64,000 nucleotides of DNA from contig NZ_LMRT01000001.1 of NCBI RefSeq assembly GCF_001426225.1, forward strand, positions 34,090 through 98,089, in the 5' to 3' direction. Shown piece by piece: positions 39,087 to 46,089 of this stretch (position 1 is its first letter; each line of letters begins with the position of its first letter). This DNA comes from Allobosea sp. Leaf344. GTDB taxonomy: Bacteria > Pseudomonadota > Alphaproteobacteria > Rhizobiales > Beijerinckiaceae. The position numbers and the translations under genes were made by a program. Below the pieces are notes generated by a model, which saw nothing but the letters and a program-made list of their open reading frames with translations, ran no database searches and was not told where the DNA came from.

Positions 39087-39101
39087 TTAACGCCAAATTA
39101 A
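39087..39101. promoter_or_regulatory. Perfect CtrA binding site
   Basis: TTAACGCCAAATTAA is an exact TTAA-N7-TTAA, the consensus of the alphaproteobacterial cell-cycle regulator CtrA. It lies 53 bases before the DUF2336 start and 111 bases before the divergent 70-residue gene. A GANTC (GACTC at 39121-39125), the CcrM methylation site that often accompanies CtrA promoters, lies between it and the DUF2336 start. Confidence 0.7.
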
Positions 39102-39153
39102 AGCCTCGGGGATTATTGCTGACTCGTCCCGATTTCCCCGCAGAGCAGCGTTC

Positions 39154-40290
39154 ATGCCCGGTCGCATCTCCTCAGAACTCGCCCATCTCGCCCGCCTCGC
39201 CCGCGATGGCGGGCTGGATCTCAGCCAGGTTTCGCTGCGGGTGAAGGCGGATCTGCTGCTGTCGACGCCGCAGCCGGCGCCGGACGACATCGCCGCCTTC
39301 GAGGCGATGGCGTCGGCGTCGATCCCCGTGATCGACGAGGCGACGGCCGTCATTCTCGCGACCAAACTGGCCGGCTGGCGCCATCTGCCGGCTTCGGTGC
39401 TGGCCGCCCTGCAGGCGCGCGGCGGCCCCGTGCTGGCGGCGCTGCTGCGCCACGGCGCGCCGGTGACGCAGGCCGAGATGGAGACGCTCGCCGAACATGG
39501 CGCGCCCGATACGGCCGCCGCTCTGGCCGAGCGGCCCGATCTCACCTCCGCGACCATGCTGCTGCTGGTGGAGCGGGACGAGCGCGCCGTCGATCTCGCC
39601 TTGATCGCCAATCAGAAGGTCGTTCTGCCGCGCGCGGCGGTCGACCGGCTTATCGAGCGCGCCCGCGCCGATGCCGCCTATGGCGCGGCCCTGCTGGCGC
39701 GCCGGGATCTCGGCCCCGCCGAGATCGCGCCGCTCTTCCTGCAGGCGGGGCCGGACCGGCGCGCCGCGATCATCGATTCGCTCGCCGCGATCGAGGCGAT
39801 CAACGATGGCGACCGCCGGCGCAGGACGCTCGAGCCGGACCGTCTGGCGGGCTGGCTCGACATGGCGGCGGCCGATCCGCCGAGCGCCTTCGGCGCCGTC
39901 GCGGACCATCTCGGCTTCGGGGCCGGGCTCGCCGAAGCCATGGAGGCCGATCGCTCGCGCGATCTCGTGGCGCTCGCGCTGGTGGCCGCCGGCGCGCGTG
40001 TCGAGGATGCGACGCGCTTCCTGATCAGGCTGGGCGACGAGGCGGCCCATTCCGTCGACCGGATCTTCGCGCTCGTGGCGCTGATGCGGCTCGTCCGGCC
40101 GGGGGTCGCGGAGCGGGTCGTGATGCAGGTCGCCGGGGCCCAGCCGCAGCAGACCACGCGGCGGGGCCGGCATCAGCCGGCGATGGACCCGTCCGGCACG
40201 CCGGTTCGGCCGGGCGCCAGCCAGCCCGAGAGCCACGCGGCGATCACGGGGATCATGCGCACGCTCGGCCTGCGGCGCGACCGGGCCTGA
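39154..40290 (+). CDS. DUF2336 domain protein
   Basis: A 378-residue, almost wholly alpha-helical protein with HEAT-like repeats (LAALLRHGAPVTQAEMETLA, LLARRDLGPAEIAPLFLQ), matching the DUF2336 family of alphaproteobacteria, whose function is unknown. The chain is about 20% Ala and 13% Asp/Glu with no membrane segment, so it is a cytoplasmic scaffold candidate. It sits behind a perfect CtrA box and converges on the kinase/DUF1491 operon. The start ATG at 39154 gives the standard family length. Confidence 0.87.
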   Translation: MPGRISSELAHLARLARDGGLDLSQVSLRVKADLLLSTPQPAPDDIAAFEAMASASIPVIDEATAVILATKLAGWRHLPASVLAALQARGGPVLAALLRHGAPVTQAEMETLAEHGAPDTAAALAERPDLTSATMLLLVERDERAVDLALIANQKVVLPRAAVDRLIERARADAAYGAALLARRDLGPAEIAPLFLQAGPDRRAAIIDSLAAIEAINDGDRRRRTLEPDRLAGWLDMAAADPPSAFGAVADHLGFGAGLAEAMEADRSRDLVALALVAAGARVEDATRFLIRLGDEAAHSVDRIFALVALMRLVRPGVAERVVMQVAGAQPQQTTRRGRHQPAMDPSGTPVRPGASQPESHAAITGIMRTLGLRRDRA

Positions 40291-40311
40291 CCGAAGCTTC
40301 GGCGGGGAAGG

Positions 40312-40644
40312 CTAGTCGACCAGGTCCAGGCGCGGATCCCCGGCCCGGTTCTCGATCTCCACCAGCCAGAGATCGGGGTCGAAGCGGCGCTCCTTCTCGA
40401 CCCGCTCCTCCACCGAGGCCGGATCGGATTGCAGAATCAGCTGGAAGCGGCGCCGGCCCGTCTCGTCCGCCAGAGCCTGCGGGGCGGGGCCGTACAGAGC
40501 CGCCGTGCCGTCGAGCCGGTCCAGCTTGACGAAGATCGCACCCGCCTCCTTCGCACCGCGACGGCGCAGCACCGCGACGAGCCCGTCCAGCGCCGCCTGG
40601 CGCAGAAAGGCGGAGACCCAGAAATCACTGGTCAGCCTGGCCAT
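40312..40644 (-). CDS. DUF1491 family protein
   Basis: A 110-residue protein of the DUF1491 family. It has the conserved SAFLRQAALDG region, a GAKEAGAIFVKLDRLDG hairpin and a C-terminal FDPDLWLVEIENR. Function unknown; widespread in Rhizobiales and Rhodobacterales. It lies 25 bases behind a proline-rich membrane protein that itself follows the PAS kinase gene by 16 bases, so the three form an operon driven from the 43134 CtrA box. Confidence 0.88.
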   Translation of the reverse strand: MARLTSDFWVSAFLRQAALDGLVAVLRRRGAKEAGAIFVKLDRLDGTAALYGPAPQALADETGRRRFQLILQSDPASVEERVEKERRFDPDLWLVEIENRAGDPRLDLVD

Positions 40645-40669
40645 GGCGGCCCAGCCTCGCCGGCCGCGC

Positions 40670-41242
40670 TCAGTTCTCCACCGGCTTGCGGGCCGGAGCC
40701 GGGCGGCCGGCGCCGCGGATCTCGGCCGGCGGGCGCATGTCGATGCCGTTGATCAGATCGGCGATCGGATCACGCGCAACTGCGCGGGCGGGCGTCACGG
40801 CCGGCGCCGGTGCCGGTGCCGGCGCGGCGGCGCGCTGCACCGGAGCCACGGGCGCAGGCGGCCGGAGCGGAGCCTCGCGGCCAGCGGGGGCGAAATCCTG
40901 GGGCCGCGCCGGGGGAAACGGAGCCGATGTCCCTTCCGGCTGCACGGCCGCCGCCTGAGGCGGCTCCGCCCGCCGCTCGACCGCGCGCGGCGGCGGGGTG
41001 ACCGCCGGCGCCGAGACGATCGGGGCGGGGTGGCGCACCGACTGGAACAGCAGCGCATTCGCCAGGATCGCCCCGGCGATCGCCGAGAAGGCGACGAGGG
41101 TCAGCGTCCGGCCCGGGCGCTTGGCCGCGAGCCGTCCCAGCCGCGTGAACAGCGCCGGCTTGCGGCGCGGCTTCTGCGGGCGCCGCGCCGGAGCGGACAG
41201 CGTGGCATGGCCATGGGAGCGGGCGGCGATGGTCGCGGACAT
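40670..41242 (-). CDS. Proline/alanine-rich single-pass membrane protein
   Basis: A 190-residue protein without a known domain. A basic cytoplasmic N-terminus (KPRRKPALFTRLGRLAAKRPGR) precedes one membrane helix at about 46-67 and a long Pro/Ala-rich segment (about 75-160), ending in DLINGIDMRPPAEIRG. Such tails usually span the periplasm to reach the cell wall or an outer-membrane partner. It is 16 bases downstream of the PAS histidine kinase stop, so it may be its accessory or be involved in polar localisation (inference). Confidence 0.65.
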   Translation of the reverse strand: MSATIAARSHGHATLSAPARRPQKPRRKPALFTRLGRLAAKRPGRTLTLVAFSAIAGAILANALLFQSVRHPAPIVSAPAVTPPPRAVERRAEPPQAAAVQPEGTSAPFPPARPQDFAPAGREAPLRPPAPVAPVQRAAAPAPAPAPAVTPARAVARDPIADLINGIDMRPPAEIRGAGRPAPARKPVEN

Positions 41243-41258
41243 GAAGCGGCACTCTCGA

Positions 41259-43064
41259 TCAGGCGGTCAGGCGGATGGGTTCTTTGGCTTCGAAGGCGCG
41301 GCGCGGCGCCCTCGCATAGGTGGTGATCGGCACGGGCTGGGCGTTGCTGGCGGCGCCGGCCACGGGCAGGCGCACGCACACCCTGGTGCCGGTCCCGGGC
41401 GCGCTCTCGATCGTCAGCTTGCCGCCATGCAGCCCGACCAGGCCGCGCACCACGGAGAGGCCGAGCCCGGTGCCCTCATGGGTGCGGTTATACGAGCTGC
41501 GCGCCTGGAAGAACGGCTCGCCCAGCCGGGGCAGGTCCGAGGCCGCGATGCCGATGCCGGTATCGGCGATCGACAGGTCGATCACATCGCCGTCCCGCAC
41601 CACGGCCAGCACGACGCGGCCGCCGGCGGGGGTGAATTTGACGGCGTTGGAAAGCAGGTTGATCAGCACCTGCTTCAGGGCCCGGCGATCACCCATGACG
41701 GCGGGCAGCTCCGGCCCCAGCACCTGCTCCAGCGCGACCGAACCGGTTTCGGCGCGCAGCGCGATCAGCGAGCAGCACTCCCTGGCCATCGCCGCCATGT
41801 CCAGCGGCTCCCGCTCGATCGTCATGGCGCCGCTCTCGATCTTCGAGATGTCGAGCAGGGTGTTGACGACATCGAGCAGGTGATGCCCGGATTCATGGAT
41901 GATCCGGGCATAGTCCAGCCGCTTCTCGGCGGTCAGGAAGTCCTGCGGCCCGGTCAGGATTTCCGAGAAGCCGATGATCGCGTTCAGCGGCGTGCGCAGC
42001 TCGTGACTCACCGTGGCCAGGAACTGCCCCTTGATGTCGCTGGCCTTCACCGCCTCGGCATGGGTGCGCGCCTGCTCCGCTTCCAGAGCGAGCCTGGCCG
42101 TGACGTCGCGCATCACGCTGACCACCACCACGCCGTCGCCGGCGGCACCGTTCTCGATGCGATGGGCCTGCATCTCCAGCCAGAGCGAGACCGGCGCGCG
42201 CGGCGCATCGGCTCCGGCTCTGGGCAGGAACAGCGTGCGGAAGGTCGCACTGGCCTGGCCCTTGCCATGGGCCGCCTCGCTGAGCGCGGTCAGGAATAGC
42301 GGCCGATCGGCGATGTGAACGCGCTCGAGCAGACCGCGTCCGAGCAGTTCGTTCGGCTCCGCCCCCGCCAGGTTCAGCGCCGCGGCATTGGCGTTGACGA
42401 CCGAGCCGCCGGCGTCGTGCCAGGTGACGAGGTCGCCGACCGTGTCCAGCAGCAGCCGGGCCCGGGCCGCGGTCGCCTGATGGGCACGCGCCTGGCTGTC
42501 GCGGCCGCGCAGGATCCAGAAGCCGAGACCGCCGGTATAGGCGATGGCGAGCGCGGCGAGGACCAGACCCGTGCCGGCCGACCAGGACGCCTCCCCGTTG
42601 CCGGGGCCGACGCCGTCGAGCGCGACCACCGCTACGAGTCCGGCCAGGGCGATCGCCATGGCGCGGCCGATGGCTGCGCAGGATCCGAGCAGCATCGCCT
42701 CCGCCGGAACCAGAGCGAGCGCGAATAGCAGTGGCGAGGCGACACCGCCCGTCACGCCTGCGAGGATGCAGATGGCGAGGCTCATGGCGGCGGCGGAGAC
42801 GCCATGGGCGAGGCCGAAGCGGGCGGTGCGGGAGAGCAGGACCACGGCCAGGAGCGGCAGCGAGACGGCGACGAGCAGCCCGGTCTCGACGGCGCCGAGC
42901 GTGCCGCGCCAGGCCAGATAGGCCGGCGCCAGCCCGAGGCCGAGCGCCCCTATGGCCAGACGCGACAGGATGAACCGTTCATGGCGGGACCATTCGGGGC
43001 TCGAGGGCAGGACGCTGGCGTGGATTAGCTCCGCCACCTGTGTCCTGATCGCCGCTATCGTCAT
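41259..43064 (-). CDS. PAS sensor histidine kinase, PleC/DivJ-like
   Basis: Membrane histidine kinase of 601 residues. Residues about 30-185 hold six hydrophobic helices; a PAS domain follows (about 205-331) with the NANAAALNLAG core. The HisKA dimerisation helix has His354 in LATVSHELRTPLNAIIGFSE, nearly the signature of the PleC/DivJ/PdhS cell-fate kinases. ATPase N, G1 and G2 boxes are NLLSNAVKF, ADTGIGI and GTGLGLSVVRG. A DivK-type partner is not nearby. The start at 43064 is favoured by family starts; the longest frame would add 19 residues. A perfect CtrA box lies 70 bases upstream, so it may be both controlled by and feeding into the CtrA circuit. Confidence 0.9.
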   Translation of the reverse strand: MTIAAIRTQVAELIHASVLPSSPEWSRHERFILSRLAIGALGLGLAPAYLAWRGTLGAVETGLLVAVSLPLLAVVLLSRTARFGLAHGVSAAAMSLAICILAGVTGGVASPLLFALALVPAEAMLLGSCAAIGRAMAIALAGLVAVVALDGVGPGNGEASWSAGTGLVLAALAIAYTGGLGFWILRGRDSQARAHQATAARARLLLDTVGDLVTWHDAGGSVVNANAAALNLAGAEPNELLGRGLLERVHIADRPLFLTALSEAAHGKGQASATFRTLFLPRAGADAPRAPVSLWLEMQAHRIENGAAGDGVVVVSVMRDVTARLALEAEQARTHAEAVKASDIKGQFLATVSHELRTPLNAIIGFSEILTGPQDFLTAEKRLDYARIIHESGHHLLDVVNTLLDISKIESGAMTIEREPLDMAAMARECCSLIALRAETGSVALEQVLGPELPAVMGDRRALKQVLINLLSNAVKFTPAGGRVVLAVVRDGDVIDLSIADTGIGIAASDLPRLGEPFFQARSSYNRTHEGTGLGLSVVRGLVGLHGGKLTIESAPGTGTRVCVRLPVAGAASNAQPVPITTYARAPRRAFEAKEPIRLTA

Positions 43065-43417
43065 GGGAAAACGCAACGCAAAACCTCTGCGGGCCGAGCC
43101 GCCCGTGTCGGAAACGACCATGCGCGGGCCGGTTTAAGCGGGATTTAAGCCGGCGGCGTCCGGCGGCCTGCGGCGGGCGGGCGGCTCGGTCAATTCTATA
43201 GATATTTCAACGTCTTGACTGATCTCCCGTCGACGGTACGAGTCCGGCGGATTGTTCCGGCAGGGTGAATGGATGCTGAAGATCGGCCGGCGCATTTGCC
43301 TCAAATCCGAGCAAACCGCCAAACCCGATCTTTCGGGTTGCAGGCTATGGTGCGGGCGTTGGAGAGATCAGCGGCCCGGCGCAGCGGATCGCGCCCGCGC
43401 CGAGACAGGGACCGGAC
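43065..43417. other. Divergent promoter region of the kinase and a small gene
   Basis: A 353-base gap. It holds the CtrA box at 43134-43148 about 70 bases from the kinase start, an AT-richer stretch around 43195-43215 and a GAGTC (CcrM-type GANTC) at 43240-43244. A 62-codon frame on the minus strand in the middle has no family likeness and is not called. Confidence 0.6.
43134..43148. promoter_or_regulatory. Perfect CtrA binding site
   Basis: TTAAGCGGGATTTAA matches TTAA-N7-TTAA exactly. It sits at -70 relative to the ATG of the PleC/DivJ-like kinase and 270 bases from the divergent small gene. In Caulobacter and Rhizobiales such boxes mark CtrA-controlled promoters. Confidence 0.7.
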
Positions 43418-44279: not shown

Positions 44280-45080
44280 TCAGGCGGCGGGGATACCGGG
44301 CCGCGCGCCCTCGGCCAGCCAGTGATGCGCATGGGCGCCGGGCCCGCGCCTGGCCTGTGACAGCCCGTAATGCCGCTCCAGCGCCGAGAGGGCCAGGCGC
44401 AGCACGATCTTGGCCGAGCGCGCCGGCCATTGCCGCTCGCGCTCGATCTGATCGAGCCCTTTCAGAAAGCCGCAGACATCGATCGCGATGCCGGCGAGGT
44501 CCGTGCCGAGGCGCTCGCAGGCGAGCCGCACCCGCTGGCGCGCCGCCAAGGCCGCATCCGTCGCCGCAGCGGGATCGCGCGTTCCCGGCGCCCGGTCATC
44601 GGGCGAGAGGGCGGCGTCCCAGTTCATCGTGGTGCGCGGCAGCATGCGGGCCGTGGTCAGATCGGCCCGGAACCGCTCGCCGGCGGCGAATTCGCCCGGC
44701 GTCAATTGCGGCTGGCCGTCCTTGCCCTTGCGCCGATACAGCCAGAGCAGAGGGCTTTCGCGCTCGTCGACCAGCACCTGGCGGGTCTCTCCGGCGATCA
44801 CCAGGCTGCGCGCGGCCAGCGCCCGTCCCTGCCCCTGCCCCGCGGCGAGTTCCAGCCGGCGGCCCCTGCCCTCCCCGGTCCAGAGCAGCAGCCCGTCGCG
44901 CACCAGCGCCTCCACCAGCTCCGCCGAGACATGCCCGGCCCCGAGGCTCGTCGCGCCTCTGGCGCGGTACAGCGCGATGCGGCCGCAGCCCAGCGGCGAC
45001 TCCCGGCCGAAGGCGCCGGCCTCGCCCAGCAGCGTGAGAAGCCGCGCGGTCTCGCGCTCCCTGTCCGGCGTGCCCGTCAT
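44280..45080 (-). CDS. DUF6456 domain protein
   Basis: A 266-residue protein of the DUF6456 family, unknown function. The recognisable core is ESPLLWLYRRKGKDGQ, LTPGEFAAGERFRADL and RTTMNWDAAL, then a helical segment ERLGTDLAGIAIDVCGFLKGL. The N-terminus looks like a winged-helix (LVEALVRDGLLLWTGEGRGRR). It overlaps the upstream DnaA-domain gene by ATGA and is therefore translationally coupled to it. DNA binding is plausible from these features; a link to replication or its control is inference. Confidence 0.83.
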   Translation of the reverse strand: MTGTPDRERETARLLTLLGEAGAFGRESPLGCGRIALYRARGATSLGAGHVSAELVEALVRDGLLLWTGEGRGRRLELAAGQGQGRALAARSLVIAGETRQVLVDERESPLLWLYRRKGKDGQPQLTPGEFAAGERFRADLTTARMLPRTTMNWDAALSPDDRAPGTRDPAAATDAALAARQRVRLACERLGTDLAGIAIDVCGFLKGLDQIERERQWPARSAKIVLRLALSALERHYGLSQARRGPGAHAHHWLAEGARPGIPAA

Positions 45081-45436
45081 GACAGCACCGCGCGGGACAG
45101 CGTGCCGTCGAGGGCGATCAGGGCGGTTTCGAGGGCCGACAGGCCGATATCGCAGGCGGGATCGTCCCGCCGATCCTCGATCAGCGCACAGGCATGGCGC
45201 ACCGTGGTGCGGTCGCGGCCGAAGCAGATGCCGACCCGGGTATAGGACAGGCCGAAGACGATATGCGCCAGATACATCGCGGTCTGGCGGGCGAGGGCGA
45301 CCGGCCGGGGGCCGCGCCGCCGCTGCCTCAGACCCTCGCAGGGCGTCGCAGCGGCAGCGGCCGTGGCGACCTCGACGAGGCGGGCGCAGGCCGAAAAACC
45401 CAGATCGACCAGCGGATCAGTCTCGATGTCGTTCAT
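45077..45436 (-). CDS. DnaA domain IV-like DNA-binding protein
   Basis: A 119-residue protein consisting mainly of the DNA-binding domain of the replication initiator DnaA, with no AAA+ domain. Residues about 45-90 read RQTAMYLAHIVFGLSYTRVG and FGRDRTTVRHAC, matching the DnaA helix-turn-helix and signature loop (usual form GRDHTTVxHA). It may bind DnaA-box-like sequences and compete with or modulate DnaA (inference); free-standing forms are common in Hyphomicrobiales. Coupled to the DUF6456 gene through an ATGA overlap. Confidence 0.85.
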   Translation of the reverse strand: MNDIETDPLVDLGFSACARLVEVATAAAAATPCEGLRQRRRGPRPVALARQTAMYLAHIVFGLSYTRVGICFGRDRTTVRHACALIEDRRDDPACDIGLSALETALIALDGTLSRAVLS

Positions 45437-45622
45437 TGTTTGTTCTCTCAGCGACTGCGGGCGGCACGGCGCCGCCCGGTGCTGTTATGAATAAATTCCT
45501 ATAGTCGATCTGGCAAGACGAGGGTGGGCTATCCCCGCCCCAAAGGAGTCAGGAGCGTAAGGCTCCCCTCACCGGCCGGGGCCGGGGCCGGGGCAGCCGC
45601 GGCGGGCGCGCGGCCAGAATGC

Positions 45623-45650
45623 AAAAAGCCGCCGGCGGGGCCGGCGGCTT
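45623..45650 (-). terminator. Rho-independent terminator for mucR-like gene
   Basis: On the minus strand GCCGCCGG / CCGGCGGC form a perfect stem around a five-base loop, followed by TTTTT. It lies about 23 bases past the stop of the MucR-type gene. Confidence 0.88.
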
Positions 45651-45672
45651 CGCGCTCTTCGGGATCGACGGC

Positions 45673-46089
45673 TCAGCGGCGCTTGCGGCGCTGCTGGCCC
45701 AGACCCATTTTCTTGGCCAGCTGCGAGCGGGCCTCGGCATAATTCGGCGCGACCATCGGATAATCCGGCGGCAGGCCCCATTTCTCGCGATACTGCTCGG
45801 GAGACATGTTGTACTGCGTGCGCAGATGGCGCTTCAGCGACTTGAACTTCTTGCCGTCCTCGAGGCAGACCAGGAAATCGGCCGTGATCGACTTCTTCAC
45901 CGGAATGGCGGGCTTGGGTGCCTCCGCCGGCGCTGCGGGCGCGACGCCCCCGAGAACCCGGCTCAAGGCGGAATGAACTTCGCTGATCAGCGCCGGCAGC
46001 TCGCCGGCGGGCACGGAATTGTTGGATACATAGGCCGAGACGATATCAGCCGTCAGCTCGATGAAGTCGGCGCCCTCATTGTCAACCAT
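45673..46089 (-). CDS. MucR family transcriptional regulator
   Basis: Ros/MucR-type H-NS-like global regulator of 138 residues, controlling exopolysaccharide, motility and cell-cycle genes in Rhizobiales. The oligomerising N-terminal half precedes the finger [20 protein letters not shown], then the conserved [20 protein letters not shown] and a basic RRKRR tail. Only one Cys remains and the second His of the canonical Cys2His2 set is Gln (RTQYN), so zinc-free folding is probable. The upstream divergent region (46090-46447) is AT-richer, as fits the TA-rich sites this family binds, including its own promoter. Confidence 0.94.

Follow-up and report, generated by a model that had tools for sequence, protein, structure and literature searches.

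Two predicted CtrA boxes bracket four facing genes in the Bosea DNA that we analysed, and we think it quite likely that the best explanation of this arrangement is a divJ locus of two units, both activated by CtrA and subject to negative feedback. Since the boxes are kept in many relatives, the four genes between them probably form one cell-cycle module. An earlier note on this DNA had proposed that a cell-fate-type kinase and two DUF families make up a signalling module under CtrA control, and the conservation of the boxes favours this proposal. We infer the following circuit from what is observed at the locus and in the genome, namely the boxes and their conservation, the gene order and a CtrA gene. 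Phosphorylated CtrA would most likely bind both boxes, activating and timing two facing units, the right one with divJ, the membrane-protein gene and the DUF1491 gene, and the left one with the DUF2336 gene. DivJ would then phosphorylate DivK, which would lower CtrA activity, so that the circuit closes as negative feedback of the kind known from Sinorhizobium. The other three products (the membrane protein, DUF1491 and DUF2336) would be made together with DivJ and assist as accessory factors in the same polar or cell-cycle step.

Four facing genes between two predicted CtrA boxes

Within the window (the whole stretch of 64,000 nucleotides that was analysed), the locus has these features:

39087..39101, no strand assigned: left CtrA box (predicted), TTAACGCCAAATTAA, exact match
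39111..39116, plus strand: -10-like hexamer GATTAT, separated by 18 bases from the preceding TTAACG half of the left box, towards DUF2336
39154..40290, plus strand: DUF2336 protein, 378 aa (Pfam PF10098, 43.5 bits, cut-off 34.6)
40312..40644, minus strand: DUF1491 protein, 110 aa (Pfam PF07372, 102.5 bits, cut-off 25)
40670..41242, minus strand: probable single-pass membrane protein, with the motif NALLFQSVRHPAPIV after a hydrophobic stretch, then Pro/Ala-rich
41259..43064, minus strand: DivJ-type histidine kinase (HisKA and HATPase_c in Pfam), likely start 43064, longer ORF to 43121
43134..43148, no strand assigned: right CtrA box (predicted), TTAAGCGGGATTTAA, on the kinase strand TTAAATCCCGCTTAA, exact match

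The gene order and the strands agree with the earlier description, as do the gaps of 16 and 25 bases. The further claim that all genes point inward holds for those between the boxes, but not for their surroundings: small outward genes flank both boxes, one running leftward from about 38976 (start placed by inspection) and one rightward from 43418. Both boxes therefore sit in divergent intergenic regions, and this setting makes outward control possible as well.

We considered that the boxes might mainly serve these outward genes, with inward control being incidental. Besides the divergent setting, this idea draws on a block (CATCAGG...GACATGG) that is conserved in Bosea outward of the left box, and on four loci in which DUF2336 was not detected (L193, L221, L223 and L231), where an exact box follows closely on DUF1491 and may serve the outward gene. 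We nevertheless consider it unlikely, because the best -10-like signal is the one facing DUF2336 (mean TATAAT match of 3.5/6 at spacing 18, the best of 12 spacings in 34 loci, compared to at most 3.0/6, at spacing 20, on the outward side), and because the right-hand box stays near the next gene of the operon in 13 loci without the kinase (see below).

Inward control of both units thus remains our preferred reading, and on the left side the first TTAACG, the 18 bases and GATTAT make up a plausible promoter towards DUF2336. For the kinase, no clear -10 element was found at 12 spacings (best 2.0/6). The position of the kinase start needs a correction: the start at 43121 is only 13 bases from the right box, and the likely start at 43064 is 70 from it; an ATG equivalent to 43064 is found in many, but not all, Bosea relatives. 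We also considered the palindrome CCGAAGCTTCGG between the convergent stops, but it is not conserved in Bosea.

TTAA-N7-TTAA behaves as a CtrA box in this genome

The exact TTAA-N7-TTAA sites reported at 39087-39101 and 43134-43148 are both present, the window holds no further copies, and none arose in 100 shuffles. In the Bosea genome (4.35 Mb in 15 contigs) there are 22 such sites, compared to 28 summed over ten control spacings (N8-N17), or 2.8 per spacing; the N7 spacing is thus enriched about eightfold (Poisson P of at least 22 sites = 4e-13 against a background of 2.8). At this background, P of at least two sites per 64 kb is 0.0008, but at the real density of 22 sites, finding two within the window is no more than mildly unusual (P = 0.04). 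Moreover, a pair as close as this one occurs in 36% of random placements of 22 sites. Thus, the nearness of the two boxes is weak evidence; what carries weight is each site by itself, together with its conservation.

Every one of the 22 sites is intergenic, compared to 7 of 13 AATT-N7-AATT sites (simple codon-based gene caller; Fisher P = 0.001), although this control is imperfect since one reading frame of TTAA contains a stop codon; of the two controls, that by spacing is the stronger. Ten neighbouring proteins, hand-picked as likely CtrA-type genes at ten of the remaining 20 boxes, were scanned with Pfam and identified as FtsK, GGDEF-EAL, SLT, a sigma-54 activator, Ddl, a PBP1a-type protein, a flagellar rod protein, FliL, DUF1465 (which we take to be the RcdA family) and a DPBB/RlpA-type protein. 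Several other box neighbours have no obvious link to CtrA by eye (DapA-like, HemE-like and ABC-binding-protein-like). The genome also encodes a CtrA ortholog (G000:C12:170158), with 83% identity to the Caulobacter sequence over query residues 1-226. Given the spacing-specific enrichment and neighbours such as FtsK, FliL, Ddl and DUF1465, TTAA-N7-TTAA behaves in this organism as a CtrA box would, and the features expected of a full-box CtrA regulon, a spacing-specific TTAA-N7-TTAA in promoters and a CtrA gene, are found together in this genome.

Conservation of the boxes within and beyond Bosea

Both the kinase and the DUF2336 protein were matched in all 37 Bosea genomes of our genus sample (own genome included), and the two share a locus in 34 of them, while in G018, G034 and G036 they lie on separate contigs of split assemblies. 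The right box is exact in 34/34 typical Bosea genomes (34/37 overall); the three remaining kinase loci are divergent (42-44% identity), with TTAG-N7-TTAA readable there. The left box is exact in 25 of the 34 typical genomes and has one mismatch in the other 9; over all 37 genomes, 25 are exact, 10 read TTAA-N7-CTAA and 2 read TTAA-N7-TAAA, the variant seen in L088 and L115. This conservation, together with the spacing-specific enrichment and the intergenic position of every site, makes it extremely unlikely that the boxes are chance AT-rich sites, even if a close pair among 22 is not rare.

The spacer of the right box is also conserved (mean identity 95%; GCCCCGC in 26/34), more so than that of the left box. 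With this spacer, most Bosea copies of the right box read as a palindrome, TTAAGC-CCC-GCTTAA, and a second binding protein is possible.

We considered two further interpretations, that another regulator binds these elements or that CtrA acts there as a repressor. The palindrome and the conserved spacer exceed what TTAA halves need, as another regulator might explain, and CtrA represses minCD in S. meliloti (PMC4433202). However, the spacing is exactly that of CtrA, with no enrichment at the other spacings examined, while divJ is activated by CtrA in S. meliloti (PMC4433202). We therefore regard both interpretations as quite unlikely and prefer activation by CtrA.

Outside the genus, genomes were located via DUF1491 and the best 80 loci were used; the kinase was detected in 43 of these and DUF2336 in 54, with some contigs ending inside the locus, and DUF2336 faces DUF1491 in 52 of the 54. 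Adding eleven order-level loci to the best 80, with Bosea excluded, yielded 47 kinase promoters and 49 DUF2336 promoters. Among these, a box with a gap of 7 and at most one mismatch is present in 48/49 DUF2336 promoters and 33/47 kinase promoters, some at odd distances, compared to 2-9 matches for the other gaps (4-6 and 8-11) in the same promoters. Exact boxes are rare in this set (0/47 kinase and 1/49 DUF2336 promoters), and 14 of the 47 kinase promoters have not even a one-mismatch box, two of the 14 having no upstream sequence. Both boxes are thus present at the orthologous loci in Bosea and, beyond it, mostly with one mismatch, contrary to the absence that the earlier note had named as a refutation. 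The DUF2336 gene has a more widely conserved predicted box than the kinase, which is new here. These locus counts come from related species and are not independent, and 12 of the 13 kinase-less cases described below are Microvirga.

DivJ as the best reading of the kinase

In addition to HisKA and HATPase_c, the kinase shows weak PAS matches in Pfam, and its best named model is the DivJ model NF050805 (234.9 bits, model positions 36-527 of 531, near full length). It is also the top match to this model in the genome, the next protein scoring 217.6 bits over the catalytic half only. The kinase thus combines the features looked for in a DivJ: HisKA and HATPase_c, an upstream PAS-like region and a near full-length alignment. 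The curated cut-off of NF050805 (1000 bits) was not reached (232-235 bits), and all 61 genomes searched, own included, are far below it; this cut-off is narrow, and in a Caulobacter-type family it is reached by 1 genome out of 60. Since the score lies under the cut-off, the assignment to DivJ is by best match and gene order. The kinase had been called PleC/DivJ-like, and the best model, the genome-wide top match and the operon with DUF1491 narrow this to DivJ, as which it is best read from these comparisons.

A similar gene order is indicated in Agrobacterium, in which divJ is Atu0921 (PMC7003649) and is numbered directly before the DUF1491 gene Atu0922 (title of PDB 2knr). Outside the order, DivJ is also the best model for the kinases adjoining DUF1491 in G063, G123 and G200. 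In L278, likewise outside the order, a DivJ-type kinase adjoins DUF1491 with a second, divergent kinase alongside. Across the class, in 20 regions sampled from 74 DUF1491 genomes, a kinase of more than 200 bits lies near DUF1491 in 3; thus, the link between DUF1491 and the kinase is not universal.

The box stays with the operon in 13 loci without the kinase

Among 22 loci with the membrane-protein gene and no kinase detected (one of which, L232, is interrupted by a contig end), 13 have the box ahead of that gene, compared to 0-5 for other gaps. Where the kinase intervenes, this is so in only 1 of 48 loci. The 13 loci, from Microvirga (L171-L176, L178-L180, L182, L185 and L187) and Roseiarcus (L193), have kept the membrane protein and DUF1491, and most have kept DUF2336. 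No full-length kinase match was found anywhere in these 13 genomes (best 181-190 bits, catalytic half only), compared to 360-433 bits in three control genomes with the kinase. Thus, the kinase appears to have been lost there, assembly gaps apart.

That the predicted box stayed with the operon after this apparent loss is the best single argument that the box belongs to the operon, and its persistence at the operon head in 13 kinase-less genomes provides a natural test of the accessory genes without DivJ. One tentative extension, which we put forward as a possibility, is that the DUF2336 solenoid, the membrane protein with its NALxxQ...HPAPLF motif and DUF1491 form a dedicated CtrA-driven control module for DivJ-type signalling, which might have outlasted divJ in Microvirga and perhaps acts on another such kinase.

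The membrane protein, DUF1491 and DUF2336

The protein described earlier as a Pro/Ala-rich membrane protein is that and is probably single-pass; beyond that description, a shared motif (N-A...Q...H-P-x-P, downstream of the hydrophobic stretch) places it in a conserved membrane family, which is new here. The protein has no Pfam match. A regular expression for the motif picked out one protein in each of 70 of the 91 loci (best loci plus order-level loci), and in 68 of these 70 DUF1491 was detected with the motif protein upstream on the same strand; the distance is 0.5 kb in L184 and 1.5 kb in L125. The expression matched in 29/40 Bosea loci, split and divergent ones included, and the hydrophobic stretch was scored in 49/50 loci.

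We considered that the membrane protein might be a relative of Caulobacter FssA, which is CC_1064 (PMC7885107), but found no support for this in a comparison made by locus position. In five Caulobacter-type loci (in one of which, L291, DUF1491 was not detected), the profile of the membrane protein found nothing between divJ and DUF1491 on either strand; the best match (E 0.0066) lies elsewhere. The same-strand ORFs between divJ and DUF1491 in these five loci resemble shadow frames.

The DUF1491 protein also matches PDB 2knr (titled Atu0922, Agrobacterium) and 4goq (CC_1065, Caulobacter). The DUF2336 protein is predicted by AlphaFold2 to be an all-helical solenoid (mean pLDDT 89.2). A PDB fold search with it returned no match at E <=0.001, those listed being weak and mostly repeat solenoids, and no sequence relatives were found in the PDB at E 1. 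A 2019 study by Wang and Bowman is reportedly tied to Caulobacter SpbR, and we considered whether the DUF2336 protein is SpbR. It scores 18.6 bits against NF052659 (cut-off 400), compared to 212 for G000:C12:675143 in the same genome; it is a distant relative of SpbR by a weak profile match, not an ortholog.

Relation to known CtrA circuits

CtrA binds upstream of divJ in S. meliloti and directly activates it, as seen by ChIP-seq, depletion and lacZ fusions (PMC4433202); the Bosea locus likewise has a CtrA site, predicted from the sequence, upstream of divJ. Brilli et al. (2010, PMC2877005) predicted the same regulatory link in Rhizobiales with a weight matrix derived from Caulobacter. Because CtrA is already known to activate divJ in Sinorhizobium, the kinase arm is a further case of a known circuit and not new. 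In contrast, the accessible part of the S. meliloti account (PMC4433202) makes no mention of a paired DUF2336 promoter or of accessory genes, and that of Brilli et al. (2010) deals with established cell-cycle genes and includes neither DUF2336 nor the membrane protein. Searches for DUF2336, DUF1491 and Atu0922 in the literature collection that we used found no paper. What is new relative to these parts of the sources is that a DUF2336 promoter is paired with that of the kinase, that the membrane protein is conserved and that the box survives where the kinase is missing. Through the two conserved promoters, three protein families that are so far uncharacterised would be linked to the feedback loop of CtrA, DivJ and DivK, and the locus offers concrete deletion targets in laboratory Hyphomicrobiales.

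We also note that the minus strand nearby, at 45077-46089, encodes a MucR/Ros regulator and a small protein that carries the C-terminal DNA-binding domain of DnaA.
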